Shown here one piece after another: positions 42,166 through 63,724 of a stretch of 64,000 nucleotides of DNA (the stretch's first letter is position 1; each line of letters opens with the position of its first letter). The position numbers and the translations under genes were made by a program. The notes beneath the pieces were generated by a model that did not search any database, was not told the origin of the DNA, and saw nothing but the letters and a program-made list of their open reading frames with translations. The stretch is from Vibrio agarivorans (GTDB lineage Bacteria; Pseudomonadota; Gammaproteobacteria; Enterobacterales; Vibrionaceae), in contig NZ_JAUFQF010000001.1 in assembly GCF_030409635.1 (NCBI RefSeq), positions 434,001 through 498,000 of the forward strand. Reading direction: 5' to 3'.

Positions 42166-43779
42166 ATGAAACCAACCCTTATTAGCTATTCGAGGGTATC
42201 CAGTGCCAAGCAGTTAGAAGGTACAGGTATCGAGCAGCAGCAAGACTATAAATTACTGAACCAGTTATCCAAAGAGTACGGTTTGCCGATTGATGAGCGT
42301 ACTTTCAGTGATGAAGGTCTATCTGGCTTTCACTCTCACAACCTCCAAGGTGAGTTTGGTCGGATACTTCAGCTTATCTCTACTGGTTCAATCATCAAGG
42401 GCTCTATCCTTGTCATAACGTCCCTAGACCGTCTATCGAGAGCCAAAACCAACGATGCTATGGAACTTATGTTATCGGTGATTAACCGAGGCATACGTAT
42501 CTACACGGCTATGGACAGTAAGCTCTATTGTAGTGATTCCCCAAACCTTACTGCTGACCTTATCGTGTCTGTCATCATCATGGCACAAGCTCACGAGGAA
42601 TCACTGAAGAAGTCGAAGAGAACCAAGGGTAATGCACTTGCCTTGATTGAAAGGTTTCACAAGGGGGAACGTGCTGCTGATGGCAATCCGATTGCAATTA
42701 AGTCGGTAGGCTCCTTGCCTTGGTGGGTGGAATCATCCGATGGTTCAGTAAAACCACATCCGTATTACTTTGGTGTAGCTCAGTGGATTGCTCAACAGTC
42801 TCTGAGTGGTGTTGGTACTACAAAGCTGCTTAGTGACCTTAACGAGCTGTACACACCTCCGAATGGTAAGGGATGGTATCGAACCACTGTTACTAGGTTC
42901 ACCAAGAGCAAATCTCTAACTGGTTTAGCTGTGTTTACTCTTGATGGTGTTGAGCACGAATTATCAGGTTATTTCCCTCAGGTGATTACTGAGGATGAGT
43001 TCTATCAAATCCAAGCTAGGAAGAAGACTGCTACGCATTCACGAACCAGTAAGAACAAGCCTACTATCTTGAATGGGTTGCAGGTACTGAAGTGTCGTAG
43101 CTGTGGTGGTGGTATGAACTACTACACTGCTGGTGGACGTAAAGCCTATCGCTGCATCAATGGCATGACTAATCGAGCCAAGTGCAAAGGTATGAGCTGT
43201 AGCTCAGAGCCGGTACACGAAGCTGTGAAGCGTTCTCTGACTTGGTTCTCTGTTCAGCCTAAACCAGTGAAGGAAGACAAGGTTACGCCTGTGGTAGCGC
43301 GACTGGATGAAGCACAAGCTAAACTTAACCAGATGGAAGCTGACTATATGGAGAGTCCATCTAACATCATGGCTAAGATGCTTGCTCAAGTTGAACAGGA
43401 TGTAGAAGCCCTACGCATCGAACTCGAAGAAACAAGACTGTCACAGGCAAGCACAGACGACTTTGGTACGTTTGATGAACCAGAGACAACTGACGAGTAC
43501 AGGGATGTGATTGTTCGGTCTGTTAATACCGTGCAGGTCCACAAGATGGGTAGGAAAGAGATGCTAATCAGCATCTACTTCAAGTCTGGTTTGAACAAGC
43601 ACTACTACATTAAGAACAACGAGGTTCTGCAAGAGGGTATTCTGTACTATGAACCACAAGCAGAGCTAGACCTACTGGATAAAGCCAACTGGATGCTGTT
43701 TGTTGCCGATGGTCGATTGAACCAATGGATTGATACAGGTAAGCCGTTGGATGTGTTACCTGACCCTTGGGAAGAGTGA
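42166..43779 (+). CDS. Large serine recombinase (integrase)
   Basis: 537 residues from ATG 42166 (AATAGGAACAAC leader). The resolvase domain has Y-S-R-V-S-S-A-K-Q with nucleophile Ser near residue 12 and S-L-D-R-L-S-R-A-K. The recombinase domain covers ~150-270. The zinc ribbon has C-R-S-C-G-G-G-M ... Y-R-C-I-N-G ... A-K-C-K-G-M near 310-345, followed by a coiled coil (~375-420, A-R-L-D-E-A-Q-A-K-L-N-Q-M-E). This is the full domain set of phage large serine integrases. The stop codon TGA is part of a TGAACCA motif, and a terminator follows. It is predicted to integrate the element at the adjacent end sites; the directionality factor is not identified. Confidence 0.93.
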   Translation: MKPTLISYSRVSSAKQLEGTGIEQQQDYKLLNQLSKEYGLPIDERTFSDEGLSGFHSHNLQGEFGRILQLISTGSIIKGSILVITSLDRLSRAKTNDAMELMLSVINRGIRIYTAMDSKLYCSDSPNLTADLIVSVIIMAQAHEESLKKSKRTKGNALALIERFHKGERAADGNPIAIKSVGSLPWWVESSDGSVKPHPYYFGVAQWIAQQSLSGVGTTKLLSDLNELYTPPNGKGWYRTTVTRFTKSKSLTGLAVFTLDGVEHELSGYFPQVITEDEFYQIQARKKTATHSRTSKNKPTILNGLQVLKCRSCGGGMNYYTAGGRKAYRCINGMTNRAKCKGMSCSSEPVHEAVKRSLTWFSVQPKPVKEDKVTPVVARLDEAQAKLNQMEADYMESPSNIMAKMLAQVEQDVEALRIELEETRLSQASTDDFGTFDEPETTDEYRDVIVRSVNTVQVHKMGRKEMLISIYFKSGLNKHYYIKNNEVLQEGILYYEPQAELDLLDKANWMLFVADGRLNQWIDTGKPLDVLPDPWEE

Positions 43780-43792
43780 ACCAGATATAAGT

Positions 43793-43818
43793 AAGGCTAC
43801 CGTTTGGTAGCCTTTTTT
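43793..43818. terminator. Bidirectional terminator between recombinase and internal virion-like gene
   Basis: AAGGCTACC GTTT GGTAGCCTT then TTTTC. It lies between convergent stops at 43779 and 43821. Confidence 0.9.
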
Positions 43819-43820
43819 CA

Positions 43821-44294
43821 TTACAGATTACCTGCGGTGTTGCCTCTACGGACTTCATCATAGGCTGCACTCTGTGCATCTCTACGGTCTCGTTGGTATT
43901 CATAATCTGCGCGTTGAAGAGCCCAAGCATCTTGCTGCATTGCCAATCGGTCTTGTGCAATACCTAAGCCTTGGAAGCCAAGCCAGCTATTAGCTAACAC
44001 ACCTGCACCTTGAATAGCCGGAGATACCCAACCAGATGAACGATTGCCTTGACCATCACGACCACCGAACATTCTATCGAAGCTGAACCATGAGTCACTT
44101 TGGTTGCCCGGTAAGTTAGCAATGTTGTTTTGCTGCTGGGTAGTAAACTGTAGTGGTTGTGTGTTCTGTGCCAAGGTATTGGCTGAATACATGTCTGCTG
44201 GATTGCCTCCACCATACATTGAACCAAATTGTTGTGGTTGCATTGGATTGTAGTTTGGGTCCCATTGACCAGTTGTTGGGTTAATTCCCGCCAT
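43821..44294 (-). CDS. Internal virion protein-like (podovirus gp14-type), 157 aa
   Basis: It starts MAGINPTTGQWDPNYNPMQP, a Pro/Gln/Asn-rich lead. A hydrophobic segment (I-Q-G-A-G-V-L-A-N-S-W-L-G-F-Q-G-L-G) precedes a charged helix (A-Q-D-R-L-A-M-Q-Q-D-A-W-A-L-Q-R-A-D-Y-E-Y-Q-R-D-R). Short podovirus internal virion proteins commonly combine such a membrane-active segment with this kind of A/Q/D/R helix. I infer a DNA-ejection role; no alignment was possible. It has its own leader containing the long inverted repeat 44358-44436. Confidence 0.5.
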   Translation of the reverse strand: MAGINPTTGQWDPNYNPMQPQQFGSMYGGGNPADMYSANTLAQNTQPLQFTTQQQNNIANLPGNQSDSWFSFDRMFGGRDGQGNRSSGWVSPAIQGAGVLANSWLGFQGLGIAQDRLAMQQDAWALQRADYEYQRDRRDAQSAAYDEVRRGNTAGNL

Positions 44295-44357
44295 AGTTAA
44301 GTTTCCTGTGTTGTATCGATACTAGTTCATTATGATACAGGCAAGCGTACGGTTAAA

Positions 44358-44436
44358 TACCCATCGATAAACTCACTCAGGTATACGAGAAACAAACACA
44401 GGTTAATGTGGATGTGAGTGAGTTTATCCATAGGTA
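44358..44436. repeat. 21-bp inverted repeat with 37-nt loop
   Basis: TACCCATCGATAAACTCACTC (44358-44378; 21 nt with internal mismatches at two positions relative to its partner) mirrors 44416-44436. A 13-bp perfect core is GATAAACTCACTC / GAGTGAGTTTATC. It lies in the leader of the internal virion-like gene. It could be a structured 5' leader, a protein-binding dyad or a replication-type hairpin. Confidence 0.8.
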
Positions 44437-44462
44437 TGAAAAAGCCAACCCGAAGGTTGGCT
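44437..44462 (-). terminator. Terminator of the leftward antirepressor/methylase-remnant operon
   Basis: AGCCAACC CGAA GGTTGGCT preceded on the + strand by a run of A, i.e. a T run on the minus strand. It ends transcripts from 45.4-44.56 kb. Confidence 0.8.
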
Positions 44463-44558
44463 AATCACGTGAGTTCACTACGCTCACTAGGGACTGCCAT
44501 CTGTCTAGGAATGGCAGGAGTGTTCATTATGTTAAGAGATGAACCATAGAGCAATAGG

Positions 44559-44852
44559 TCATGGGGTAGATTTCTCGACCATTCTCCAATATTGCATCAC
44601 TCGTCCTCGTTTGACTGGTTCAATGGTTCTGTCCAGTTGCATCTTGAACTCTGCTAGCTGCTCATCAGATAGGTTAGGGTAGAGCTTCTTCAACGCGTCT
44701 GTATGGTCTCTGTCGTGGTTGTATGACCTAGGACGACCATTTGTCCTATTATCTCGTTCACGTTGCTTACGTTGCTGCTCAGTTAGCTTTTGCTGCTTAC
44801 GTTGGAGGACTTCTTCCGGTAATGACAAGTCTAGGTAGGTTAGATCTGTCAT
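44559..44852 (-). CDS. Small basic protein, paralogue of the 48,356 gene
   Basis: 97 residues from ATG 44852, which overlaps the upstream stop (ATGA). It has a basic coiled segment (Q-R-K-Q-Q-K-L-T-E-Q-Q-R-K-Q-R-E-R) followed by D-N-R-T-N-G-R-P-R-S-Y-N, R-D-H-T-D-A-L-K-K and an acidic helix. The protein encoded at 48356-48652 shares L-P-E/L-E-V, R-E-x-(D/E)-N-R-(T/A)-N-G-R-P-(R/K)-S-Y-x-x-x-R-D-(H/Y)-T-D and the following helix. The function is unknown; it is plausibly nucleic-acid binding. Confidence 0.7.
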   Translation of the reverse strand: MTDLTYLDLSLPEEVLQRKQQKLTEQQRKQRERDNRTNGRPRSYNHDRDHTDALKKLYPNLSDEQLAEFKMQLDRTIEPVKRGRVMQYWRMVEKSTP

Positions 44853-45058
44853 TTGGTGAACCATGGTTTATCTAATCCGTTGGTCTGTTCCGTGTAGTAG
44901 CGGTTCGCTTTAACCGTGTTGTTTGCTTGTAGGCAACTCGCAGGATCTAAATCGATAGTACCTAATGTGTTGCGTGCTGCTTCGATGAACTCTGCAGGTG
45001 TGAACCATAAATCGTTCTTGTTGGTAGAGTGTTGCCCTACCATTACTGCTTTAGTCAT
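44849..45058 (-). pseudogene. Truncated phage DNA N6-adenine methyltransferase
   Basis: 69 residues. N-K-N-D-L-W-F-T-P-A-E-F-I-E-A-A-R followed by G-T-I-D-L-D-P-A-S-C and N-R-Y-Y-T matches the N-terminal third of phage Dam-type (DNA N-6-adenine) methyltransferases. It stops at P-W-F-T-K, just before the catalytic motif (N/D-P-P-Y/F) should appear. It is therefore inactive as a methylase, or retained as a binding fragment. Both ends overlap neighbouring genes by ATGA-type junctions, so translation coupling has been kept or restored after the deletion. Confidence 0.8.
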
Positions 45059-45323
45059 TGGTACGTTCCATTAAGATCTGGGTAAACTTCATCTTCTTGA
45101 ACTTGAGGGTAGCCCCTCCTGAAAATGAACCAACGAGCTCTAGGGCTGCGATAAGGTCTAGTTCGACCATTGGCATCATTCCAGTCTTGTTGCCTTGGTA
45201 GAAGCTGTCTCTGGTTTGATTGGCTTGGTAGATACCTTCCTTTTGTCGTGCACGAACCAGAGAGATAACGTGACGATGTTGCTTGCCGAAGTAATCAGCT
45301 ATTTCTTTTGTGTTGGTAATCAT
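45051..45323 (-). CDS. Rha-like N-terminal domain regulator, 90 aa
   Basis: M-I-T-N-T-K-E-I-A-D-Y-F-G-K-Q-H-R-H-V-I-S-L-V-R resembles the Rha/Phage_pRha N-terminal HTH-like segment (E-I-A-x-x-x-G-K-x-H-x-x-V). It ends with L-K-F-K-K-M-K-F-T-Q-I-L-M. Its ATG overlaps the stop of the interrupted gene upstream. It is probably a phage-type DNA-binding regulator or antirepressor. Confidence 0.65.
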   Translation of the reverse strand: MITNTKEIADYFGKQHRHVISLVRARQKEGIYQANQTRDSFYQGNKTGMMPMVELDLIAALELVGSFSGGATLKFKKMKFTQILMERTND

Positions 45324-45432
45324 TTGGTATGTTGCCTCATTGCGTGCTCTGCTAGTCGCAGTTTCTCACGAAGTTCGTTAAGCTGCTCTGCTGTTAATCC
45401 TGCCGAAGGCAATAACGTTGGTAGGTTAACCT
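45320..45432 (-). pseudogene. 3' remnant of a gene cut by the IS3 insertion
   Basis: About 36 codons run from the IS edge to TGA (K-V-N-L-P-T-L-L-P-S-A-G-L-T-A-E-Q-L-N-E-L-R-E). The stop is coupled to the Rha-like start. The 5' part is not found on the other side of the IS, so DNA was lost. Confidence 0.7.
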
Positions 45433-45440
45433 TGTAGTGG

Positions 45441-46619
<1,179 letters not shown>

Positions 46620-46690
46620 GTTTCACCTGTTGTGTACGAGGTGCATTCTAACACCTCTAATCAGGTGGCCAAATTAACTATGCCACTACA

Positions 46691-47008
46691 AACACACATC
46701 TCGTTAAGATAATGGATACGTGTCACAAGAACTACAGCCCTAAGATCTTCACTCAAGTCTCTTCAAATATAAATCTACGACTTTCATTGACTGGTCATCT
46801 TCGGTTAGATTTTTTGTGCCTATTTCCCCTCGATTGTTCGGTCTCTTTTTATTCTTAAACGAATAGCATTCATCAACGAAATTCAAAAATACAAGCGGTG
46901 AAAAAGATATTGGTGTGGGGTGTTATTCCATATGGAATAGTTGATATTCAGATAAGAATATTTGTTGCCTGTATATTGCTCTGCTCTCGTCATAGATAGG
47001 CTTAAATC
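46691..47008. other. Intergenic between IS and lipoprotein gene
   Basis: No ORF with a ribosome site. The perfect 16-bp palindrome TATTCCATATGGAATA at 46924-46939 lies 70 bp before the lipoprotein start and may be an operator. No TGAACCA motif occurs here, unlike the rest of the element. Confidence 0.55.
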
Positions 47009-47479
47009 ATGAACAAACGAATCACACTTATCCTTGCATCACTTGTACTTGTTGGTTGTGGTAGCGATAGCTCATCATCACCCGAACCACACTGCTCAGA
47101 CGTGAACCGTATTGATGCTAGCGGGAATACTCACCTATTTAGGGTTAACGAGTGTAATGATGTTACCTCGTACCGCATCAAGTATGACTACTACCATCAA
47201 GTAGGTGCAGCTGGCGATAGCCTTACATTCTCAGACACTACAGGAACCCTCAAGCCTTACTACATTGTTAAGCGCGGTAATTGGTATCACTGGACAATCC
47301 AGTACTCAAACAATTCACTATGCTTTACGGAGACTTACCAGAAGTCATATGAAGATGATCGAGAAGTAAATCACTACTGCGATGACCACATGTACTATCA
47401 CCAAATCATGAGCGAGTACGACTATGGTCATTGGGCAGATCAAGTAGATATTGCACGTAAAAACGCAAAATATTTTTAA
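47009..47479 (+). CDS. Phage-borne lipoprotein, 156 aa
   Basis: MNKRITLILASLVLVGC is a lipoprotein signal with lipobox V-G-C, followed by G-S-D-S-S-S. The mature domain has paired cysteines (C-S-D, N-E-C-N-D, L-C-F-T-E, Y-C-D-D-H) and Y/H-rich stretches. It has the same layout as the lipoprotein at 47602. Surface lipoproteins carried by lysogens often alter receptors or block superinfection; that is inference here. Confidence 0.7.
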   Translation: MNKRITLILASLVLVGCGSDSSSSPEPHCSDVNRIDASGNTHLFRVNECNDVTSYRIKYDYYHQVGAAGDSLTFSDTTGTLKPYYIVKRGNWYHWTIQYSNNSLCFTETYQKSYEDDREVNHYCDDHMYYHQIMSEYDYGHWADQVDIARKNAKYF

Positions 47480-47601
47480 CCATGCGGGTACTTCAGTCCC
47501 AAAATTGATGAAATAAAATAGAGAATTAATATTCGCCTTGAGCATGGGTAAGACAGCATCACTTGCTCTGTAACATTGTCGAATTAAAACGAGAAATAAT
47601 C

Positions 47602-48252
47602 ATGAAAAAACTAATCACACTTGCACTATCACTCGTACTTGTTGGCTGTGGTAGCGATGACGCTACTAGCTGTAGTAACGAATGTCACGTACCAGAACCA
47701 CCTAAACCAATGCTTCCTATTGAAGCTGTACCTGTGCCACCTATCGAAGAGGCAGAGCCTGTCTTACCTATGGAGCACTGCTCGCTGTACAACCACTACA
47801 CCGTAAATAAGCACACTGACCTCATTACATTCGTGAACAATGAGTGTAATGGTGTGACTCTGGCAAGCTTTCAAGATGTACGAGGAACGTCTAAGTTAAT
47901 ACAAGGAACTTACGTAATTGAAGATGAAGATGCTCAATACGAGATTATCATCCAGCCGGTGTATTCAGCAGGTGAGCTGCTCAGAACTACTTACTACTAC
48001 TATACGTTCCCACACGGTCAGGAATGCTATAGTAACTTCGTTAGCATCACTCACCAAGCACAGTACCATAACTTCCTAAGCGGTACTCACTACACTCAAG
48101 ATGAGTGGTGTGATGGCGGTGAAACAATCTCACTACCAACTAGTATGGAAGGTGATGAAGGCCACGAAGAGAAATTAGCATTCTTTACTAGACAACGTGA
48201 AGACATGGAAGACTACGCGCGTGAAGCACTATTCATGGCAACTGAACTGTAA
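47602..48252 (+). CDS. Phage-borne lipoprotein, 216 aa (related layout)
   Basis: It starts at ATG 47602 (GAGAAATAATC leader). Signal MKKLITLALSLVLVGC with lipobox V-G-C, then G-S-D-D. A Pro/Glu linker (E-P-P-K-P-M-L-P-I-E, V-P-V-P-P-I-E-E) precedes a Cys-containing domain with H-C-S-L-Y-N-H-Y, N-E-C-N-G-V and E-W-C-D-G-G. It resembles the 47009 protein in order of cysteines and N-E-C-N motif, so the pair probably arose by duplication. No TGAACCA motif lies in either gene. Confidence 0.7.
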   Translation: MKKLITLALSLVLVGCGSDDATSCSNECHVPEPPKPMLPIEAVPVPPIEEAEPVLPMEHCSLYNHYTVNKHTDLITFVNNECNGVTLASFQDVRGTSKLIQGTYVIEDEDAQYEIIIQPVYSAGELLRTTYYYYTFPHGQECYSNFVSITHQAQYHNFLSGTHYTQDEWCDGGETISLPTSMEGDEGHEEKLAFFTRQREDMEDYAREALFMATEL

Positions 48253-48263
48253 ACCAACCTTGA

Positions 48264-48278
48264 GGGTACTTCGTACCC
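48264..48278 (+). terminator. Short perfect hairpin after second lipoprotein
   Basis: GGGTAC TTC GTACCC right after the stop at 48252. No T run follows, so it is a weak call. Confidence 0.45.
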
Positions 48279-48324
48279 TTAAACTGAAATACGCGCACAT
48301 GTGCTCAAGGCTCGTTTCTCTCTC

Positions 48325-48355
48325 TAAAAAAGAGCCACCTAAATGGTAGCTCTTT
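48325..48355. terminator. Bidirectional terminator between lipoprotein gene and leftward operon
   Basis: AAAGAGC-C-ACC ... GGT-A-GCTCTTT arms (one mismatch pair) with A and T runs on both sides. Confidence 0.75.
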
Positions 48356-48652
48356 TTATAATTGAAATAGTTTGTGTTCTCTTTCCCAGTACCAGAGTAT
48401 CCGGTCTCGTTTGCCAGAATCTTTGGTGCCATCCAATTGATGAAGGACATCTTCAATCTGTTCATCATCAAACTTAGGGAACATCTTCATTAGAACGTCT
48501 GTGTAGTCCCGTGAAGGGTCATAACTCTTTGGTCTACCGTTGGCTCTGTTTTCTTTCTCTCGTTCTTTCTGAGCTTGTTTACAAAGCCTCTGTGCCTTGG
48601 TTCTGGCAATACGCTTATGAACTTCTAGCGGTAGTGCCAGATCAATGTTCAT
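48356..48652 (-). CDS. Small basic protein, paralogue of the 44,559 gene
   Basis: 98 residues. Basic segment (K-R-I-A-R-T-K-A-Q-R-L-C-K-Q-A-Q-K-E-R-E-K), then E-N-R-A-N-G-R-P-K-S-Y-D-P-S-R-D-Y-T-D-V-L, then an acidic helix. It is the last gene of a three-gene operon (TAATG overlap with the previous stop). The conserved N-G-R-P-K-S-Y motif links it to the 44559 protein; its function is unknown. Confidence 0.75.
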   Translation of the reverse strand: MNIDLALPLEVHKRIARTKAQRLCKQAQKEREKENRANGRPKSYDPSRDYTDVLMKMFPKFDDEQIEDVLHQLDGTKDSGKRDRILWYWEREHKLFQL

Positions 48653-48972
48653 TACTTCTGCTCCTCTGCGTAGATACCGGTCTTATTTAGGTAATTGGTA
48701 ACAGTCACCCGACTTTTACCGATAACTCTAGCAATCTCTGCTTTGGACTTACCTTCAGCATTAATTTCGTCTGCGACTGCGAACCATGAAGGATTAGCGC
48801 GTTTACCCTGTAGGTCTCTCACTTCCTCTCTGAGTACTTCTACATCCTTAGCAAGTGTATCGTTGATAAGGTACTGCTCGCCTAGGCGCTGCATTACTTG
48901 GAATAGTAGAACCTCAACACCTTGCTCTTCTATTGCTTGTTGGTAGTTTTCAGGTAGGTCTTGTAGGTTCAT
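48652..48972 (-). CDS. HTH-domain regulatory protein, 106 aa
   Basis: A C-terminal helix-turn-helix, K-S-K-A-E-I-A-R-V-I-G-K-S-R-V-T-V-T-N-Y-L, is preceded by a coiled-coil-prone region (V-L-R-E-E-V-R-D-L-Q-G-K). It is coupled at both ends (ATGA with the upstream gene, TAATG with the downstream). It is probably a DNA-binding regulator of the element. Confidence 0.75.
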   Translation of the reverse strand: MNLQDLPENYQQAIEEQGVEVLLFQVMQRLGEQYLINDTLAKDVEVLREEVRDLQGKRANPSWFAVADEINAEGKSKAEIARVIGKSRVTVTNYLNKTGIYAEEQK

Positions 48973-49751
48973 GCTATTTCTCCTGCTTCACGTAGTGCTG
49001 CGATGTCTCGTTCAATGGTTCTAGTTGTTGCGCCAAAGGCTTCTGCCATTTGGGCTATTGTCATTCTTGAGTGGTGCTTTACTACCTGCTCTCTGCGAGT
49101 AATCTTGTTCAACTTGCCCATTGAAGCAACATTTGATTCAACTGAATCCATTCTCGCTCGTAGGTCTTGGACCTCGTGGGTAAGCTCCATGTTACCCATC
49201 GCTCTAAGTCCTGCATGAAAGTTACCGCTGTGCTGCTTGGCAAAGGTGATTGTTTGGTTCAATTTACGTCCTACTCGTGTTCGTGGGTTGTCGATGGCAG
49301 ACACCCAGAGGTCGCCAAGATGTGACTGGTCGAGCTCATTAAGGAAAGGGGATATTTTCGCTGCTTCTTTTGCACAGGCATAAGCTCTTGTGTAAGGGTA
49401 ACCAACAACTCTCAAGGCGTAGCGTTCCGGGTCAGGTATTTCGTGATGGATTGCTGTAGCTATCAAAGCGTCAACGGCTGTCGCTTCGTAATTACCCTGA
49501 GCTACGTGCTCACCTGCAACAGCCAAGGCTGTAATCATATGTTCGTGAAGGAACTGAGGTGCATACGCTGAACCAGTGGGCTCTGCTGCTTCGTGCTTGA
49601 GGTATTCCTCGTCTGTTTGGCTATCGATTTGTGCAATCCAACTAGATAGTTGAAGTTCCTTCTCAGTAGTGCGGTCAACCTTAGTGCGCATCTCCTGACG
49701 AGATTGCTTTAGGTGGTCCAGCATTGCCTGACGTTCACTGATAAATGACAT
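48969..49751 (-). CDS. HTH-domain protein, 260 aa, first gene of operon
   Basis: It starts at ATG 49751 behind GGAGACTTAA. The long helical body (residues 1-200) is followed by a coiled segment (L-R-A-R-M-D-S-V-E-S-N-V) and a C-terminal DeoR/HTH_11-like motif, M-T-I-A-Q-M-A-E-A-F-G-A-T-T-R-T-I-E-R-D-I-A-A-L-R. That motif is typical of DNA-binding regulators; the body has no recognised family. It might act in replication or partition of the element, but no catalytic motif is seen. Confidence 0.65.
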   Translation of the reverse strand: MSFISERQAMLDHLKQSRQEMRTKVDRTTEKELQLSSWIAQIDSQTDEEYLKHEAAEPTGSAYAPQFLHEHMITALAVAGEHVAQGNYEATAVDALIATAIHHEIPDPERYALRVVGYPYTRAYACAKEAAKISPFLNELDQSHLGDLWVSAIDNPRTRVGRKLNQTITFAKQHSGNFHAGLRAMGNMELTHEVQDLRARMDSVESNVASMGKLNKITRREQVVKHHSRMTIAQMAEAFGATTRTIERDIAALREAGEIA

Positions 49752-49816
49752 TTAAGTCTCCAAGTCGTTCTTGTTGTCGATGGAGTAATTAAACCTACAC
49801 TTAGGTATAGGTGTAA

Positions 49817-49841
49817 AGTAAAATAGTATAATTATTTTACT
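49817..49841. promoter_or_regulatory. Operator-like dyad in leftward promoter
   Basis: AGTAAAATA GTATAAT TATTTTACT, 66 bp before the HTH operon start; the centre resembles a -10 box. Confidence 0.55.
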
Positions 49842-49943
49842 GTATTTGTTTGTGTCGGAAAAATGTCGGGTTTTTGTCGGTTTACTATATGAGTACCCTT
49901 ACTAGGTATTAATCACAGGGGTAAGGTTAGGCTGGTGGAGAGG

Positions 49944-49972
49944 TTGGTAGATGTACATTCCTACATAGAGAA
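49944..49972 (+). repeat. 29-nt repeat copy 1
   Basis: TTGGTAGATGTAC ... CATAGAGAA; 24 of 29 positions match copy 2 at 50078-50106. Confidence 0.7.
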
Positions 49973-50077
49973 ACATGCTTGTCCACGGCTGTTCACTCTG
50001 TTCAGTGAAACTGAACAAAACCCAAGATAGACGCGAAAAAAAAATAATATAACCCCTATATTACCAAATTGGTTCAG

Positions 50078-50106
50078 TTGGCAGATGTACGCTCCTCTAT
50101 AGAGAA
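50078..50106 (+). repeat. 29-nt repeat copy 2
   Basis: TTGGCAGATGTAC ... TATAGAGAA, 134 bp downstream of copy 1 in the same orientation. Confidence 0.7.
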
Positions 50107-57267: not shown

Positions 57268-57268
57268 A

Positions 57269-58927
57269 TTAGAAGCCCTCCGGTCTGTAGCCGTACTTGG
57301 CTTCAAACGCATCAATCTGGTCTGGGTTAGCAGTTAAGTAGTCCAGTGCTCCTTGTGGTGCCGTGATCTGTGCACCTACTGGTTCAGGTTGTTGCTGTGG
57401 CTGACCACCATTGGCTGCACGAGATTGAAGGTCTGCAGCAGTAGCCTCTGCATTACCGATTGCTTCATTGGTCTTCTGTTCAACTTCAGCCTTGGATTCG
57501 TACTGTGGTTTGGTCCAGTTAGGAATGTCTGGGGCTAGATGGGCTTCAGCTACATCTAGTTCTTCAGCAGTCTTAACCAGTGAGTTATGTCCAGAAGCAA
57601 TATTGTCACGAGTAGCTTTTACGGTTTGTAGTTGCTCTGCCAGCGTATTCCCCGACAGAGAATCGATGGTTAGACTCATTGCTGTATCTGATACAGGAGC
57701 AAATGCACGTACAATACTGCGAACGACCTCCAGTTTGCGAGATTCACTCTGTGCGTACAGGTCGTTAACTTCTGCATCACCAAACTGCATACCTAAAGGT
57801 TCAGCATACTTGTTGAGTAGTTGTCGTAGGCTATTACCAAATCGGGATGAGTCAGATTCCTGCAGCAGACTGATAATCTCAAGACTTTCATCGAGGAACT
57901 GTATATCACTTTGGATGTTGTTCCTTTCTGTCACGTAGTCTACAAACTGAGACTGACTGTACTGACCACGGTTACTAGCTAGAGCTGACTCAGCATTCAA
58001 GAATTCACGAGAAGCTGCTACTTGTTCTGCAGAGTAGTCTTGTTGGTTTGCTAATACTTCAGAGTGGAAGTCTACCATCGTAGGCTGTACTTCCTCGAAG
58101 TCCTCACCCATCTCGACTACCTGACCATTACGGTCATAAACACGTCCGTCTTTGCCTTTTGACCCATTGAGTAAGTTACCTTCACCATCACGGTACTTAA
58201 TGTCAGTGGCAAACACATCTGCACCAGTTCCATTTAAGCCGGGTACTGACCACGCACCAACCTGCTTAGTTTCACCAGTAACATTGTTGGTTTGGGTCAT
58301 TACTTGGCTATCACCGTATGTCTGTGTCACTGGGTCACTCCATTGAGGACGTAAACCTCGGTCTACTTCTAGCTGTGTAGTGTACTGCTGTAGTGCAACT
58401 TCTTTAGCCTGAGGAGACATGGTTTCGTCATTTCGTAGCTGTGTGCGAACGTAGTTCAACTTAGCATTGTCTGGTAGGTTTGCTACGGTTTCAGGCAGTT
58501 CAAGGTTGCTTACGTATTCTGTAGCTGCTGATTGAGCACCTACTTGCTGCTGTTCTTGGTTGAATCGCCACTGGTTGATGGTGTTGTTGGTAGCTTGTAG
58601 TTCAGCTGCGTTTACACGGTCTAGGTCAATCTGATTACCGTATTGAGCCAAGTCCTGACGGAATGCCTCAACATCTAGCTGACCATCACCTTGAGCTGCC
58701 TCTGCTGCCAATTGGTTCAATCGAGCGACTGCTTGAGATGTGTTCTGAGCTACACCTGTTTCGTAGTTCTGTTGAGCAATGTCTGTCTGCTCTCGCGCCA
58801 TATCACGTAAGCCTTGGACTGCTTGGTTGATGTTCTTACCTGCTTGGTTTAAACCCTGCATAGGGTTCTGACTAGCAGCAATTCTGGATAAGTTGTTTAG
58901 TGCGTTATTCACACCTCGGGTAGCCAT
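57269..58927 (-). CDS. Internal virion / ejection-type protein, 552 aa
   Basis: It starts at ATG 58927 behind AAGGAATTTACTACC. It is very Gln/Ala/Asn-rich and helical: A-L-N-N-L-S-R-I-A-A-S-Q-N-P near the start, then long coiled segments with Q-Q-Y-T-T-Q-L-E and a C-terminal A-N-P-D-Q-I-D-A-F-E-A-K-Y-G-Y-R-P. Composition and pairing with the 888-aa protein are like T7-type gp15/gp16. This role is inference from composition and order. No protease or lysozyme motif is seen. Confidence 0.6.
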   Translation of the reverse strand: MATRGVNNALNNLSRIAASQNPMQGLNQAGKNINQAVQGLRDMAREQTDIAQQNYETGVAQNTSQAVARLNQLAAEAAQGDGQLDVEAFRQDLAQYGNQIDLDRVNAAELQATNNTINQWRFNQEQQQVGAQSAATEYVSNLELPETVANLPDNAKLNYVRTQLRNDETMSPQAKEVALQQYTTQLEVDRGLRPQWSDPVTQTYGDSQVMTQTNNVTGETKQVGAWSVPGLNGTGADVFATDIKYRDGEGNLLNGSKGKDGRVYDRNGQVVEMGEDFEEVQPTMVDFHSEVLANQQDYSAEQVAASREFLNAESALASNRGQYSQSQFVDYVTERNNIQSDIQFLDESLEIISLLQESDSSRFGNSLRQLLNKYAEPLGMQFGDAEVNDLYAQSESRKLEVVRSIVRAFAPVSDTAMSLTIDSLSGNTLAEQLQTVKATRDNIASGHNSLVKTAEELDVAEAHLAPDIPNWTKPQYESKAEVEQKTNEAIGNAEATAADLQSRAANGGQPQQQPEPVGAQITAPQGALDYLTANPDQIDAFEAKYGYRPEGF

Positions 58928-58987
58928 GGTAGTAAATTCCTTGTGTCTTTTTGGATGCATATCATCTTAATCGGACAAGGTAGGAAA

Positions 58988-58999
58988 TGCGATAGGGTA
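58988..58999 (+). promoter_or_regulatory. TGCGATAGGGTA motif
   Basis: Followed by GAGGGAAACAG, similar to the context at 59468 and 61228. Confidence 0.45.
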
Positions 59000-59015
59000 G
59001 AGGGAAACAGATGTG

Positions 59016-59040
59016 AAAAAGCCGACACTAAGGTCGGCAT
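59016..59040 (-). terminator. Leftward terminator upstream of the ejection-protein operon
   Basis: On the minus strand GCCGAC ... GTCGGC is followed by TTTTTC. It would insulate the operon from leftward transcription. Confidence 0.7.
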
Positions 59041-59467
59041 TCTCAAGGAGCTTTGAACCATAGAGAAGTCAGCACGAGCTTCCCTACGTTCCGGTGTACT
59101 AACTGAGTGCTAATCAGCTACTAAAACCTACCTTCTAGGCTCACAGCGATAGTTTGGCTTGGTTGGTTCAACTATGGGCAGGTAGCTACTCCTACGTACA
59201 TGGTATCGGCAATTCCACCCCAATATGCTCTTGGTCATTGGCATTAAGCATAACCGTCTAGAGCTCCATTGGTTTGCGTATCTAACTTGGTCCCTTGCTG
59301 ATGAGCTAAACCAGAAGAAACAACTATGAGTTTCAGGCTATCTACCTACGTATGGTAGAGGTCAATCCAACACACCTATACAAACACTGGTTTGAGAAGC
59401 TATCTCTGCACAGAAGTCTATACGTCTGCGTTGGTATGGCTACATCCTACAAGGACAGGGAACCGGA

Positions 59468-59480
59468 GTGCAATAGGGTA
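59468..59480 (+). promoter_or_regulatory. GTGCAATAGGGTA motif
   Basis: 86 bp before the Ig-like gene. An inverted copy of its core (TACCCTATAGC) lies at 59499-59509. Confidence 0.5.
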
Positions 59481-59565
59481 GGGTGAAATAGAAAGCTATA
59501 CCCTATAGCGTTCTGTAAGTGGGTTTGAGATGATTAGGATTCAATCGATTGAAGGAGTTTTACCG

Positions 59566-60045
59566 ATGAAAGAAGCTAAACATATCGAACTTTCGCAGAA
59601 GGAAGTTTATACCCAACTACAGGAGCTATTGAGCCAGTCTCAATCACAAGCTACTGCTTACCAGACATACGTTCGTAATCTGATGACTCGTGCAATGTAT
59701 AAAGGCGATGTAGATGTATCAGAGATTCCATCTCGTCCAACACCTGACTTCTCTGTGCCATACTGTGTTGTTCAGCCAGCAGACGTATCTGGTGCCGATG
59801 GTTCAACTCAAACCATGACTACTGAGTGGATTGGTGAGAAGGCTGTTCGCTTCCAGTGGTTCTTTAATGATGGTGGTGGTACGGACTTCCGTCCTATTGC
59901 AGATGGTGCAACATATACCGGTACAGATACTGCAGAACTGACCATTAACAATCTGTCTGCTACTTCAGAAGGCAACTACTTCTGTCGTGCATTCTCTCGC
60001 TTTGGTAATGCTGACTCGAACACAGCCAATGCTGCTGTAGTCTAA
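59566..60045 (+). CDS. Ig-like-domain phage protein, 159 aa
   Basis: It starts at ATG 59566 because GAAGGAG lies eight bases upstream. The N-terminal helix (H-I-E-L-S-Q-K-E-V-Y-T-Q-L-Q-E-L-L) is followed by an immunoglobulin-like fold from ~residue 65: V-R-F-Q-W-F-F-N-D-G-G strand C Trp, L-T-I-N-N-L-S-A-T-S-E-G-N-Y-F-C-R-A with Tyr-x-Cys. Such domains decorate phage heads or tails and bind surfaces weakly. It is likely a virion-surface accessory or adhesion protein. Confidence 0.7.
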   Translation: MKEAKHIELSQKEVYTQLQELLSQSQSQATAYQTYVRNLMTRAMYKGDVDVSEIPSRPTPDFSVPYCVVQPADVSGADGSTQTMTTEWIGEKAVRFQWFFNDGGGTDFRPIADGATYTGTDTAELTINNLSATSEGNYFCRAFSRFGNADSNTANAAVV

Positions 60046-60070
60046 TATGGTTCAATTAAGGAGATCCCCA

Positions 60071-60370
60071 ATGAAAGACATCTTTGCTATGAGCGATGAC
60101 GAGTTTGAAGCAGCTAAACCAAAAGACCTAATGAAGTTAGAGGTGGCTATCCGTGAAGCATCGGAAGATGAAGACGAAGTGGTAGTTGAGCCATGGTCTG
60201 TTACACAGGAGTTCAACACCCTGACTCTAGAAGACCAAGCTAAGTTTGGTGAAGCTCTCGGTGTAGAGAAGTCAGACGATGTTTATGCTGTTGTCGAAGA
60301 GATGGACAACAATGAACGTAAACACCTACTGAAACAGCTACTGCAGAAGCGTCTAGAGATGCTAGGCTAG
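60071..60370 (+). CDS. Acidic small protein, 99 aa
   Basis: ATG 60071 follows TTAAGGAGATCCCCA. M-K-D-I-F-A-M-S-D-D-E-F-E-A-A-K-P-K-D-L is followed by a long acidic stretch (E-D-E-D-E-V-V-V-E) and a helical C-terminus (L-L-K-Q-L-L-Q-K-R). No family is recognised. It is probably co-transcribed with the Ig-like gene; a scaffold or chaperone role would be speculation. Confidence 0.6.
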   Translation: MKDIFAMSDDEFEAAKPKDLMKLEVAIREASEDEDEVVVEPWSVTQEFNTLTLEDQAKFGEALGVEKSDDVYAVVEEMDNNERKHLLKQLLQKRLEMLG

Positions 60371-60440
60371 CCTATCGCATTTGAACCAGTAGTTAGATAG
60401 ACTGGTGATGTCGTAGTAGTACATTCCCCTTGGATTAGAT

Positions 60441-60464
60441 AGGCACCTTTCGAGGTGCCTTTTC
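60441..60464. terminator. Bidirectional terminator
   Basis: AGGCACCT TTCG AGGTGCCT TTTC between convergent genes. Confidence 0.9.
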
Positions 60465-60467
60465 TAT

Positions 60468-60911
60468 TTATGCCCATAAAGCTGTGTAGCCTTTGTATTG
60501 GGGGATGCTGCCCATCATTAGGTCTCGGATAACTTTTGTTGGTAGAGGTAGTTCGTCCATTAACTTCATGGCAACCTCTGTTCGAGCTGTTGAACCATCT
60601 GGCTTCATTACTGCAACTACCTTACTCTCTTTCCGGTATTTCCTGTCCTTGTATTGGTGCAGGTAGCCTACTTTACCGTAGCGACCGTCAGTCTTGAGTT
60701 TTGAACCAGATTGGTAAGTCTCCTCGAACTCGTACTCATACATAGCCATGTCCAAGGTGTCTTGGCTTGGTGTGTTATTCTCCACCCAATGTGAACCAGT
60801 ATCGATGAAGAACAGCACCTTGTTTGGGGTGATGATGTAGGCTTCATTCTTGTATGTAAAGCAGTTCTGCCATCCGTGTAATTGAACCAATTCTTGTGTG
60901 GTATGCGTCAT
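60468..60911 (-). CDS. Element protein of unknown function, 147 aa
   Basis: Its ATG overlaps the upstream stop (ATGA). M-T-H-T-T-Q-E-L-V-Q-L-H-G-W-Q-N-C-F-T-Y-K-N-E-A-Y leads into a beta-rich basic protein with G-Y-L-H-Q-Y-K-D-R-K-Y-R-K-E-S-K and S-T-A-R-T-E-V-A-M-K. No family is recognised. It is the second gene of a two-gene operon. Confidence 0.6.
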   Translation of the reverse strand: MTHTTQELVQLHGWQNCFTYKNEAYIITPNKVLFFIDTGSHWVENNTPSQDTLDMAMYEYEFEETYQSGSKLKTDGRYGKVGYLHQYKDRKYRKESKVVAVMKPDGSTARTEVAMKLMDELPLPTKVIRDLMMGSIPQYKGYTALWA

Positions 60912-61174
60912 GCGAATGCCCTCTGTGTTTGCCTAAGTAATCCCATCTCTTGCTGTTCAATAGCATCAGTATCTTTCTGTGCTCGCACTGCTGGGTCCAT
61001 AACGCGCTTGTGGTAAAGGCGTTCCTCGTTCACCTGCAGAATTGAACCAGTGTTGATGAACTTGATTGTGTAGATTGAGCCTTTGCCTCGGTAGCGTGGA
61101 GCCTTTAGAACCATATAGCTACCACATGTATTGGTCCCATGCTTAGTGCCTTCATCAAATCTATGCTTTCTCAC
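60908..61174 (-). CDS. Element protein of unknown function, 88 aa
   Basis: The GTG start at 61174 follows AAAAGGAGACATAGC. It is basic: M-R-K-H-R-F-D-E-G-T-K-H-G-T-N, R-Y-R-G-K-G-S-I-Y-T-I-K-F-I-N-T-G-S-I. It begins a leftward two-gene operon facing the control region 61.2-61.9 kb. No family is recognised. Confidence 0.55.
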   Translation of the reverse strand: MRKHRFDEGTKHGTNTCGSYMVLKAPRYRGKGSIYTIKFINTGSILQVNEERLYHKRVMDPAVRAQKDTDAIEQQEMGLLRQTQRAFA

Positions 61175-61227
61175 GCTATGTCTCCTTTTGGCTATGAACA
61201 GTAGTGTAAATGCTACTTAAACCGAAT

Positions 61228-61239
61228 GGTATAGGGTGA
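61228..61239 (+). promoter_or_regulatory. GGTATAGGGTGA motif (variant)
   Basis: It matches ATAGGGT of the other copies; GTGAAATGCAGG follows, like the 59468 context. Confidence 0.4.
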
Positions 61240-61786
61240 AATGCAGGAAATTTCGAGGGTGTGAGCGCAATAAGCTACCTAATACAGAGACTATATTCTG
61301 TTCATAATTTTACACACCCTGTTCATATTCTTTCACATTCAACACCCACATAGCATTTTGATTTAAATCAAGTTATTACCTACACCCCCTACATTAACTC
61401 GACTTCTAACTATCCCAATATCACTACTTTGCTCACTATCAGTGCCATAAGCTATAAGCCTCTGTAGAGCCCTCTACGAGGTGAAACCAGAAAGAGATAC
61501 AAATGCTCGGATGTAGGGGAAATAAGCCTACATTGAGTCTTATGGTTCGCAGGTTTTGACGAATATCTCTCATATTATTTTGCAGGTTTTTCTCTCATCT
61601 GAAATCTAGGTGTGAGTGTAGTACTTATAGATATATCTTGGTGAGAACTTTATACCCCCCCCCCTATCAACTTCTCAGCTCCTCAATATCGAACCCCATA
61701 GCTACCCCAACTATCTAGTAAGCCTTGATACATAAGGGCTGGCTCAATCGTGAGAACGTTTCATATCTCTTTACTACCTTTATATG

Positions 61787-61806
61787 TGTATAGCAAATAC
61801 TATACA
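61787..61806. promoter_or_regulatory. Operator-like dyad TGTATAG-N6-CTATACA
   Basis: The arms are perfect; the spacer is CAAATA. The same dyad occurs at 63503-63522 before the HTH gene. Confidence 0.65.
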
Positions 61807-61908
61807 TCCATACCAACGAGGTGAGCCAACGGGCTAGAGAGGATAGGGAGCAAAACCTTATCAGTCACAGACACTCTCAATGATGCAACGACCTGACCTC
61901 AAGTGTAC

Positions 61909-61920
61909 TGCTCTTTAACA
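61909..61920 (+). promoter_or_regulatory. rrn-type boxA antitermination site
   Basis: TGCTCTTTAACA is identical to the boxA core of gammaproteobacterial rRNA leaders and is followed by AAT as in rrn. It is the expected binding site for NusB-NusE (S10) in the nascent RNA, 23 bases before the first right-end gene. Confidence 0.7.
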
Positions 61921-61942
61921 ATCTGAACCATTAGGAACAAGT

Positions 61943-62197
61943 ATGGACTTAGACCAAACCAAGCGACTCACAGAGTCAAAGGAACGTTGGGACGAGGCAA
62001 AGCAAACGATACTGACCAACATACAGCGTAGAGCTTTGGACGTGATTAGACGTGCGGAGATTGCCTACGTTGAGGGACGTATCGACCATGTACCTGACTA
62101 TGGCTATGTGATTGAACCAAACATCATTCAGCACCGTGACATAGACAGATACGAACAGCGACTCAATACGCTGATTGCCAAGTCTCAAACCAAGTAG
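61943..62197 (+). CDS. First right-end operon protein, 84 aa
   Basis: ATG 61943 in CATTAGGAACAAGT. It is helical and charged: M-D-L-D-Q-T-K-R-L-T-E-S-K-E-R-W-D-E-A-K, then I-R-R-A-E-I-A-Y-V-E-G. No family is recognised. It is preceded by boxA and TGAACCA. Confidence 0.6.
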   Translation: MDLDQTKRLTESKERWDEAKQTILTNIQRRALDVIRRAEIAYVEGRIDHVPDYGYVIEPNIIQHRDIDRYEQRLNTLIAKSQTK

Positions 62198-62262
62198 GGA
62201 TTTATTCATAGGCATTGGCTAACAGTGTCTATGGCTGAATGAACCAACAGAGAAATGAACCA

Positions 62263-62484
62263 ATGAAACGAATAGGCGAACGCATTGCATGCTGGCTTAA
62301 CCGTAAGGCCATTGAGCAGTACTTGTTTGAATTAGCCGAAGCTAAGTACCCAGACAGACACGTCACGGAATATCGAAGGTATGTGCACAGTGTTTGGAGT
62401 AACACCTCAAACCTTAAATACCGTCCAGACATGCTACCAATGACACGTTGGGCAGCACTACACCTTTACAGCTTGAACCGCTAA
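62263..62484 (+). CDS. Small basic protein, 73 aa
   Basis: It starts at ATG 62263 (an in-frame ATG at 62239 would add eight residues). M-K-R-I-G-E-R-I-A-C-W-L-N-R-K-A-I-E-Q-Y is followed by E-Y-R-R-Y-V-H-S-V-W. Two TGAACCA motifs lie in the leader and start. No family is recognised. Confidence 0.5.
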   Translation: MKRIGERIACWLNRKAIEQYLFELAEAKYPDRHVTEYRRYVHSVWSNTSNLKYRPDMLPMTRWAALHLYSLNR

Positions 62485-62529
62485 CTAATAGGGCAATCCT
62501 GCCCTCATTTGAACCAAAGAGGAAACGAT

Positions 62530-62673
62530 ATGCGAATAGCACGAACACTGGCTCACGTAGCGTTAGAGCTACATAGGCAAGGAAGCACAGAGCAAGCAGA
62601 GAGGATATGGCAGGAAGCCAAGGGAATATTTGAAAGAGAGCTTAGGCTGACCAACTCCAATCAGACAGCCTAA
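62530..62673 (+). CDS. Small helical protein, 47 aa
   Basis: ATG 62530 follows AAAGAGGAAACGAT. M-R-I-A-R-T-L-A-H-V-A-L-E-L-H-R-Q-G is followed by a single amphipathic helix rich in E/R/A. No family is recognised; the ribosome site and tight packing support it. Confidence 0.5.
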   Translation: MRIARTLAHVALELHRQGSTEQAERIWQEAKGIFERELRLTNSNQTA

Positions 62674-62743
62674 GCAGTACCAACCTTAACCAAAAAGTCA
62701 GTATGCGAGAGTGTACTGACTTCCTTAACCAAAGGAAAGTCGA

Positions 62744-63061
62744 ATGACTACCATGAACAACCTTCTAACTAGCCTACGAACCTCACTTGAAGATGCATAC
62801 AACTATACGAACGAAGTAGATACATACTCTGTTGTTTGCGAATGGGCAGACCGTGAAACCATCCAGAACCATGATTGCAGAAGCATTATTGACGATACAG
62901 AGCTTTACCGACTTATCGACTTCTCAGATGAGCAAGAAGCTATGCAAGGTGCAGAGAGCATCAACGAAGCAATCACAGCAGTAGCTTATCGAATCGTTAG
63001 AGAGCTTGGATTAAATAAAGCTGACTCAATCCTCACAGACATTAAAGGGGGGAACGAGTAA
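62744..63061 (+). CDS. Acidic protein of unknown function, 105 aa
   Basis: ATG 62744 follows AAAGGAAAGTCGA. It is acidic and soluble: N-N-L-L-T-S-L-R-T-S-L-E-D-A-Y-N-Y, D-R-E-T-I-Q-N-H-D-C-R-S-I-I-D-D-T-E, then A-I-T-A-V-A-Y-R-I-V-R-E-L-G. Its stop overlaps the next start (TAATG). The acidic, DNA-mimic-like composition is noteworthy, but no function is assigned. Confidence 0.6.
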   Translation: MTTMNNLLTSLRTSLEDAYNYTNEVDTYSVVCEWADRETIQNHDCRSIIDDTELYRLIDFSDEQEAMQGAESINEAITAVAYRIVRELGLNKADSILTDIKGGNE

Positions 63062-63144
63062 TGCACAGTTACGAGATACCAACAGAGAACGACTACGAAC
63101 TAAACGAGTTCTGGGACAACTTCTTCGAGGATGACGAAGAGTGA
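63061..63144 (+). CDS. Acidic microprotein, 27 aa
   Basis: It starts at the TAATG overlap and ends in TGA, which is itself part of TGAACCA and overlaps the next GTG. Thirteen of 27 residues are D/E/N. It is called mainly from coupling on both sides. Confidence 0.4.
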   Translation: MHSYEIPTENDYELNEFWDNFFEDDEE

Positions 63145-63224
63145 ACCAACCAACTGTACTACTTATCGCACTTGTCCTTGGCATTGTGTGGGCTGCAATT
63201 GTCATTCGTAGCAGTGGTGACTAA
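63141..63224 (+). CDS. Single-pass membrane microprotein, 27 aa
   Basis: A GTG start overlaps the previous stop. After V-N-Q-P comes T-V-L-L-I-A-L-V-L-G-I-V-W-A-A-I-V-I, a clean transmembrane helix, then R-S-S-G-D. The size and shape are like small phage membrane or lysis-accessory peptides. The function is unproven. Confidence 0.45.
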   Translation: MNQPTVLLIALVLGIVWAAIVIRSSGD

Positions 63225-63244
63225 CCTTAACCAATGAGTAAAAC

Positions 63245-63451
63245 ATGAACAAACTACTACCACTTTCCCTAATCTTCACAGCACTAAGCGCACAAGCAAC
63301 AGAATACGAACCAGAGAACGCTATCTCTGTTGCCTACGGTGACAAGATGTTCAGCACTACCTTCTACCTTAATAATTCCTTTTACTTGGGTGTAGCGACT
63401 AATCAAGAAAGCACAGATTCGATACAGCCAACACTTAGCCAAGAAAGGTAA
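63245..63451 (+). CDS. Secreted small protein, 68 aa
   Basis: MNKLLPLSLIFTALSAQA is a signal peptide. The short mature part (T-E-Y-E-P-E-N-A-I-S-V-A-Y-G-D) ends after 50 residues. It resembles the N-terminus of a small beta-barrel or periplasmic protein and may be a truncated moron. A terminator follows. Confidence 0.55.
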   Translation: MNKLLPLSLIFTALSAQATEYEPENAISVAYGDKMFSTTFYLNNSFYLGVATNQESTDSIQPTLSQER

Positions 63452-63467
63452 GTGAACCATATCAAAG

Positions 63468-63491
63468 AAGGGAGCTACGGCTCTCTTTTTT
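63468..63491 (+). terminator. Terminator of the right-end micro-gene operon
   Basis: GGGAGC TACG GCTCTC (one G-T pair) followed by TTTTTT. Confidence 0.75.
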
Positions 63492-63502
63492 ATTACCTAA
63501 TG

Positions 63503-63522
63503 TGTATAGTGTGGGCTATACA
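63503..63522. promoter_or_regulatory. Operator-like dyad TGTATAG-N6-CTATACA
   Basis: The arms are perfect; the spacer is TGTGGG. It lies 20 bp before the HTH gene start and is the same as 61787-61806, suggesting one regulator for both. Confidence 0.65.
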
Positions 63523-63541
63523 ATGAACCAGAGGAAAGAAT

Positions 63542-63724
63542 ATGCTCGATGTGAGTGACGAAGCTATCAAGGTGTTCTTAGCGAACCTGAGCGATAGTCA
63601 GAAGAAGAAGCTACAAATAGTTGATGACCTGCTTGCAGGTGAACCAGTGAAAGATATTACTGTCAGACGTAGTGTTACGCGTGACTACGTGTACCAAGTG
63701 AAGCGTAAGCACAAAATCAACTAA
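63542..63724 (+). CDS. HTH protein, 60 aa, candidate element regulator
   Basis: ATG 63542 follows GAGGAAAGAAT. M-L-D-V-S-D-E-A-I-K-V-F-L-A-N-L-S-D-S-Q is followed by L-L-A-G-E-P-V-K-D-I-T-V-R-R-S-V-T-R-D-Y-V-Y-Q-V-K-R-K, a homeodomain-like helix-turn-helix with a basic recognition helix. With the dyad immediately upstream it may autoregulate and also control the right-end operon, or be the recombination directionality factor. Confidence 0.65.
   Translation: MLDVSDEAIKVFLANLSDSQKKKLQIVDDLLAGEPVKDITVRRSVTRDYVYQVKRKHKIN

Follow-up and report, generated by a model that had tools for sequence, protein, structure and literature searches.

The heptamer TGAACCA in the integrated element

What is the heptamer TGAACCA doing in such numbers in an integrated element of Vibrio agarivorans? 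The window, by which we mean the whole stretch of 64,000 nucleotides that was analysed (contig NZ_JAUFQF010000001.1 of assembly GCF_030409635.1, positions 434,001 to 498,000, forward strand), contains an element of ∼21.76 kb at 42076..63843, bounded by copies of a GAAACC core at 42076-42081 and 63838-63843. The explanation towards which we lean, with modest confidence, is that TGAACCA is a primase-recognition word of the Schitoviridae, the family of the N4-like phages, and that the element depends, as a satellite, on a phage resembling Vibrio phage PG11 and has been selected to carry its helper's word. The insertion point is a hairpin, terminator-like by eye, between two host genes; the uninterrupted site is present in a congener (G007), where the hairpin is continuous at the position at which the element sits in the window.

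Exact counting finds 60 copies between 42257 and 63646, 41 on the plus strand and 19, reading TGGTTCA, on the minus strand. The original prediction, made from the sequence alone, had the minus copies right and missed one plus copy (59 in all, 40 plus), and it underestimated the first 42 kb of the window, where it reported one copy and there are five. Across the whole genome there are 1067 copies in 4,907,847 bases, or 0.206 per kb outside the element against 2.76 per kb within it, and beyond the element the density falls to the host level. The host background thus predicts 4.5 copies in 21.76 kb (Poisson P ∼2e-45), so that the over-representation is real and an equal density in the host is excluded. 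Genome-wide, the word (569+498) is nearly as common as a control in which its letters are reversed (540+522), and we conclude that the host shows no use for it; of the signals first proposed, those that would serve the host by uptake or as KOPS are therefore not supported, while a signal of the element or of a helper phage stands, with a primase-type signal the best supported.

TGAACCA is the commonest heptamer in the element, followed by its own overlapping shifts; the first unrelated heptamer, AGCAGCA, occurs 18 times. The result of correcting for composition depends on the order of the Markov model. An order-2 model expects 8.6 copies, while a maximal-order test at k=7 shows no excess, because the hexamers of the word themselves carry it: at k=6 the top ranks of the same test go to TGGTTC (85 against 62 expected) and TGAACC (69 against 46). 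Codon usage had been dismissed as a cause, and rightly so, given that synonymous shuffling of the element's open reading frames (ORFs) leaves 8.8 copies where 41 are observed, that the copies within genes occupy several codon phases, and that 19 of the 60 fall outside the 19 element genes listed. The word is exact, in that no flanking column exceeds 0.32 bits; several one-letter variants are mildly raised (AGAACCA 12, CGAACCA 12 and TGAAGCA 15, against 1.5, 2.6 and 3.1 scaled from the host). Its spacing in the element is not more even than random.

The same word in N4-like phages

The original prediction had suggested looking for a phage that shares the enrichment, and such phages exist. PG11, an N4-like member of the Schitoviridae, carries 207 copies of TGAACCA in 71.8 kb against 10 of the reversed word, and Vibrio phages D275 and 1.245.O carry 181 and 137 (counted in 72,000 of 72,255 and 70,000 of 71,702 bases). 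Their densities of 2.9, 2.5 and 2.0 per kb bracket that of the element. Against a synonymous-codon null, TGAACCA is the top heptamer in all three, with observed over expected counts of 166/19.5 in PG11 and, in 50-kb parts of the others, 104/19.1 in D275 and 89/13.2 in 1.245.O.

We extended the comparison to 26 Schitoviridae genomes: the complete sequence of PG11, 50-kb parts of ten further named phages, and 15 contigs from IMG/VR. Counts over phages here and below ignore kinship among the sampled genomes. Related words stand at or near the top in N4 (CTGGTTC, that is GAACCAG), JA-1 (GAACCAA), K479 (AAACCAA), PEV2 (AAGCCAA) and Axy22 (GGAACCA), and rank second in Pollock (AAACCAA) and DSS3P2 (GAACCAA); phage 1.025.O has none among its top heptamers. 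In N4, GAGCCAG is a form of the word beside GAACCAG. The family consensus is RARCCAR (template YTGGYTY). A word bearing RCCA ranks first in 18 of the 26 genomes, another word doing so in 1.025.O, Pollock, DSS3P2, G238, G242, G245, G248 and G255. Taken as a class, RARCCA is above the codon null in each genome but 1.025.O, on either strand and in both gene arms.

A first IMG/VR search with the PG11 primase alone returned nothing. The primase loci from IMG/VR that we analysed are the best 80 of 271 relatives, 54 of them at least 10 kb long; the contigs of at least three (L184, L197 and L226) also belong to the set of 26 genomes. RARCCA exceeds the codon null in all 54 of the longer loci (median 1.66, range 1.15-2.21), in which the reversed class has a median of 1.20 and seven other classes lie at 0.80-1.10.

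A strand preference beyond that of transcription exists in the Schitoviridae, and it is modest. With the genomes placed in N4 gene orientation, plus-strand copies outnumber minus-strand ones in 25 of 26 (in all 26 if G231, oriented by the wrong ORF, is turned) and in 62 of the 80 primase loci, with 15 opposite and three ties. The codon-corrected excess is larger on the plus strand in 22 of the 26 genomes when rightward genes are taken, and in 20 when leftward genes are; measured as a ratio, these numbers are 22 and 12. PG11 itself carries TGGTTCA mostly on the plus strand, 88 to 22 in bins of rightward genes and 60 to 37 in bins of leftward genes, and since this majority holds whichever way the genes run, we rejected a transcription or messenger RNA signal. 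Spacing is more even than random in PG11 (coefficient of variation 0.78 against 0.99, with none of 5000 simulations lower), borderline in D275 (p 0.09; 0.03 on one strand) and not more even than random in 1.245.O.

PG11, L101, G233, G245 and G255 also have another group of over-represented words, built around CCGGG or GCCGGC; examples of such words are CCCGGGA in PG11 (13/0.6), CCGGGTA in Pollock (11/0.9) and GCCGGCA in G245 (25/3.6).

Phage proteins that follow the word

PG11 is a mosaic, and its parts do not all have the same nearest relatives. In TerL it shares 56-57% identity with D275 and 1.245.O, against 57-63% with eight of nine other genomes (52% with G247); its portal is 45-47% identical to those of the word-sharing phages and 46-55% to the others, and its major capsid protein 58 and 56%, against up to 66% elsewhere. 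By contrast with these other genomes, D275 and 1.245.O are nearer to PG11 in primase (72 and 69%), DNA polymerase (63 and 61%), SSB (51 and 52%), RNAP2 (63 and 57%) and RNAP1 (55 and 58%). A wider comparison, covering 55 of the 108 annotated features of PG11, found that the word is followed by SSB, primase, DNA polymerase, gp25, RNAP1 and RNAP2, and that it is not followed by Sak4, exonuclease, RusA, Nmad5, vRNAP or gp51-gp54. Two tail proteins also tend to follow it, and gp69 does so for 1.245.O only, its D275 match being cut. To judge from these identities, the exact word travels with the proteins of replication and early transcription.

Three proteins, namely DUF2800, an 80-residue homeodomain-like protein and one of 188 residues, have matches in PG11, D275 and 1.245.O and in no other of the 26 genomes, and being so confined they cannot explain a word that is family-wide. 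The homeodomain-like DNA-binding protein is encoded at 42899-43141 of the PG11 record.

The primase as candidate reader

Which of the co-segregating proteins would read the word? The Schitoviridae primase (gp43 in N4), of a kind present in roughly 470 phage records, according to family models and a predicted structure consists of an MCM-like helicase followed by an archaeo-eukaryotic primase (AEP) catalytic core and, behind that core, a PriCT/helix-bundle domain. (For the C-terminal model, Foldseek alone found nothing below E 0.001, and the matches to AEP were given by a second aligner.) Primases with an AEP core and a helix-bundle domain are known to recognise their templates (PMC8076596, PMC8718748): the PrimPol of phage NrS-1 reads TTTGGTTA (PMC8718748), and ORF904 of plasmid pRN1 reads GTG. 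The hexamer TTGGTT within the NrS-1 site is also the top hexamer of JA-1 (as AACCAA, 243 against 100), and TGGTTCA shares TGGTT with it. Priming of the T7 type at GTC was considered and rejected, given that the Schitoviridae primase shows PriCT_1 and no T7-like domains and that the T7 genome has no comparable word excess.

We infer that the primase is the reader of the word, that lagging strands are primed at its copies, and that the element is mobilised by a phage of this kind. TGAACCA, with 5'-TGGTTCA-3' in the template, would be the form to which RARCCAR has been sharpened in one clade, scattered as recognition sites of the helicase-primase. The MCM-like part would unwind the DNA, the C-terminal PriCT/helix-bundle domain would bind the word in the exposed template strand, and the AEP core would begin a primer beside it; sites biased to one strand and occurring every few hundred bases would then give dense lagging-strand priming.

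Some observations weigh against this proposal. The NrS-1 genome shows no enrichment of words from its own primase site (TTTGGTT 6 against 6.7 expected, TTGGTTA 2 against 4.1), and two loci with a primase identity of 57%, L180 and L181, hold few exact words, at 0.40 and 0.72 per kb, although the ORFs of L181 have 14 against 3.7 expected. The words that are over-represented in NrS-1, AAGCTTG and AGCTTGA (22/6.5 and 21/6.3), are unlike its published primase sites.

The rival that survives best, which we nevertheless regard as unlikely, is that another protein of the replisome or of early transcription (DNA polymerase, SSB, gp25, RNAP1 or RNAP2) reads the word, as a pausing, loading or transcription-linked site. 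All of these follow the exact word from phage to phage, just like the primase, and the Mantel correlation of the DNA polymerase is in fact above that of the primase (0.27 against 0.13-0.14), in family-wide tests that separate no protein. However, the word differs from a promoter in occupying both strands, coding DNA and hundreds of sites, and a primase of the AEP/helix-bundle type is known to read TTTGGTTA (PMC8718748). For none of the five rival proteins do we know of sequence-specific recognition of such a kind.

Sequence-specific priming is usually taken to depend on some three letters, which leave little genomic trace. If the proposal is correct, the specificity of a replisome could be read straight from sequence as a family word of six to seven letters, and one could test concretely in what way N4-like phages give their own DNA an advantage over that of the host. 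The general form of the idea is a genome-wide priming code of hundreds of clade-specific, oriented words, by which Schitoviridae DNA would be a preferred substrate of the phages' own MCM-AEP helicase-primase, and to which satellites lacking any replication gene would have rewritten their whole sequence to match their helper; we would put this at somewhat below an even chance.

The element as a candidate satellite

The element encodes an integrase, a large serine recombinase at 42142..43779 on the plus strand (PHROG 95, E 2e-52; Pfam Resolvase and Recombinase), and beside it, at 43821..44294 on the minus strand, a 157-residue protein that profile comparison places in the family of N4 gp52, annotated as a 16.5-kDa virion protein. 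Members of this family turn up in 70 of 50,697 phage records, and 51 of the 70 are from Vibrio phages. The nearest phage relative of the element's protein is in PG11 (54% over 102 residues), and hhalign of it against the gp52 family of PG11 gives a probability of 99.0. A search of IMG/VR with this protein found nothing; among 227 congeneric genomes, the source genome included, it was found in the source genome only, and one relative at 61% carries the name Vibrio agarivorans. No replication, capsid, portal or terminase gene was recognised among the element ORFs scanned, several of which belong to no recognised family. Since its recognised genes include an integrase and a gp52 relative but none for a polymerase, primase, helicase, terminase or capsid, the element would rely for its copying on the replisome of a helper, and would hence be selected for the helper's word. 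A replisome word at phage density would be expected of an element dependent on a PG11-like helper, and on this ground we predict the element to be a satellite. A literature search found no described satellite of N4-like phages or other Schitoviridae, and the element is the first candidate for one that we could trace; should this be correct, the helper of a satellite could be deduced from the satellite's heptamer content without culture.

It is possible, though we think it improbable, that the element is instead the decayed remnant of a temperate N4-like phage, and the word a neutral inheritance. The gp52 relative, the phage-type regulators and a 2-kb stretch free of long ORFs, with its broken antirepressor-like frame (by eye), could all be read in this way. 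However, the integrase frame is open, the element's 888-residue protein has a full-length relative at 52% elsewhere, and when 12 element proteins were searched against every ORF of the 26 phage genomes the gp52 relative alone gave a clear match, while the density of the word equals that of the phages. Even a remnant would leave the origin of the word in a phage replisome.

Distribution and orientation along the element

The copies fall into five blocks around a gap. Block A (42257..45132) holds 14, 11 plus and three minus; block B (49255..51718) seven, five plus and two minus; block C (52252..56809) 16, nine plus and seven minus; block D (57163..60054) eight, all minus but one; and block E (60382..63646) 15, all plus. 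The long runs of one orientation that were first remarked upon in D and E are thus present, and so is the independence from transcription, since plus-strand genes carry 10 plus and seven minus copies and minus-strand genes 15 and nine. The absence of the word from an insertion sequence (IS) and its surroundings also holds: the 4.1 kb from 45133 to 49254, made up of the IS and cargo genes, has no copy, although the density elsewhere in the element predicts 14 (P 8e-7, or 7e-5 without the IS). This stretch looks as if it were a later arrival not yet adapted to the word.

Treated as a circle, the element has a non-random orientation of TGAACCA (permutation p 0.019), with the skew at its maximum between 51712 and 52252 and at its minimum between 60048 and 60382. 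The maximum adjoins a stretch of ∼2 kb (49752..51811) with no ORF of at least 80 residues, which by this position is a candidate origin region. If the word is taken as primer-strand sequence, forks would set out near this ORF-poor region (49.75-51.81 kb) and converge near 60.2 kb. Provided that satellite priming occurs as proposed, the origin is predicted to lie near 51.7-52.3 kb and the terminus near 60.05-60.38 kb. The ORF-poor stretch also contains many inverted repeats and, at 50600-50935, the broken frame mentioned above.

Recombination, packaging and composition

A Chi-like signal, by which the word would regulate end processing by the phage exonuclease or Sak4 in recombination-dependent replication, had been among the first suggestions. 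The word is dispersed, asymmetric and strand-biased, and the exonuclease and Sak4 genes of the Schitoviridae adjoin the primase gene. However, in the word-sharing phages Sak4 (34 and 39% identical) and exonuclease (45 and 50%) are no closer to those of PG11 than in phages with other words, and we consider this role very unlikely. A signal for packaging, DNA condensation or self-marking, read by a helper's terminase or modification enzyme, seems to us a shade less probable again. A satellite needs to be packaged, a dispersed common word would mark its DNA, and PG11 does encode an Nmad5 modification protein; yet neither D275 nor 1.245.O has a match to Nmad5, and TerL and portal of the word-sharing phages are no closer to those of PG11 than are most others. 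Packaging signals, moreover, normally occupy one or a few sites. Least credible of all is a functionless side effect of composition or codon usage, for although the strand bias and the abundance of RARCCA are partly codon-driven and the reversed class is itself slightly raised, RARCCA is more frequent than synonymous shuffling allows in 25 of the 26 genomes and in every one of the 54 longer loci, and this, with the other control classes near 1 and the 19 element copies outside the listed genes, speaks against it.

Other genes of the element

A short Rha-like regulatory protein (45051..45323, minus strand) and a Rha/Ant-type phage regulatory protein of the antirepressor family (51812..52594, plus strand) were assigned by family library matches. 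Between them lie the IS, with transposase-like ORFs judged by eye (45441-46654), and, in the word-free cargo, two lipoprotein-like genes, also by eye (47009-48252), the second without a Pfam match. Two related small proteins of 101 and 98 residues (by eye) are encoded at 44559-44864 and 48356-48652, either side of the IS and cargo; both carry a similar RPxSYxxxRDxTD stretch, and the latter copy lies in the word-free part.

Further along the plus strand are an int-alpA RNA (RF02996, 53527..53595; 40.3 bits, the gathering score being 35.8) and an HNH endonuclease-like protein (53796..54584; PHROG 2081, E 7e-14, no Pfam match). The minus strand then encodes the 888-residue protein (54601..57267), whose one full-length relative is that in Vibrio sp. 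FNV 38, and a 563-residue protein of no family recognised in library scans (57269..58960). Three congeners match a short domain of the 888-residue family only, and their 3.5-kb loci hold 0, 1 and 1 copies of TGAACCA. Searches of phage records and IMG/VR with the 904- and 563-residue proteins found nothing, and profile comparison of the 888-, 553-, 171-, 179- and 260-residue proteins with gp51-gp55 of N4-like phages was negative. An immunoglobulin-fold protein at 59530..60045 (plus strand) is weakly Hoc-like by library match; in N4, the annotation of gp17 is that of a Hoc-like decoration of the head.

Comparison with known systems

No described signal with the sequence TGAACCA was found in the portion covered of the open-licence papers that contain the string, and this agrees with the original prediction, which knew of none; a related primase site is described for NrS-1. 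Nor did searches of that literature yield an over-represented Schitoviridae motif, a primase word spread through a phage genome, or relevant work on the primase and replication origin of N4.

Chi, KOPS and DNA uptake sequences are short, asymmetric, over-represented and strand-biased words, and TGAACCA resembles them in each of these respects. It differs in that it is not enriched in the host and in that it tracks the replication proteins of phages, not those of recombination. The stoperators of cluster A mycobacteriophages are likewise short, asymmetric and scattered, in tens of copies; copies of TGAACCA are far more numerous, and their orientation is independent of transcription.

A further parallel is with NrS-1 and pRN1, which have in common with the Schitoviridae an AEP core with a PriCT/helix-bundle domain and an asymmetric word in the template strand, NrS-1 also sharing TTGGTT. 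In the Schitoviridae, however, the primase core lies behind an MCM-like helicase, and the word is genome-wide, clade-specific and common to an integrated element, while NrS-1 has one TTTGGTTA site and no enrichment. Finally, the element is like the phage satellites PLE, PICI and P4 in being small and integrated, with an integrase, phage-type regulators, a relative of a virion gene and no recognised capsid or terminase; it is unlike them in that its putative helper is N4-like, and in that its dependence on that helper is suggested by an oligonucleotide signature.

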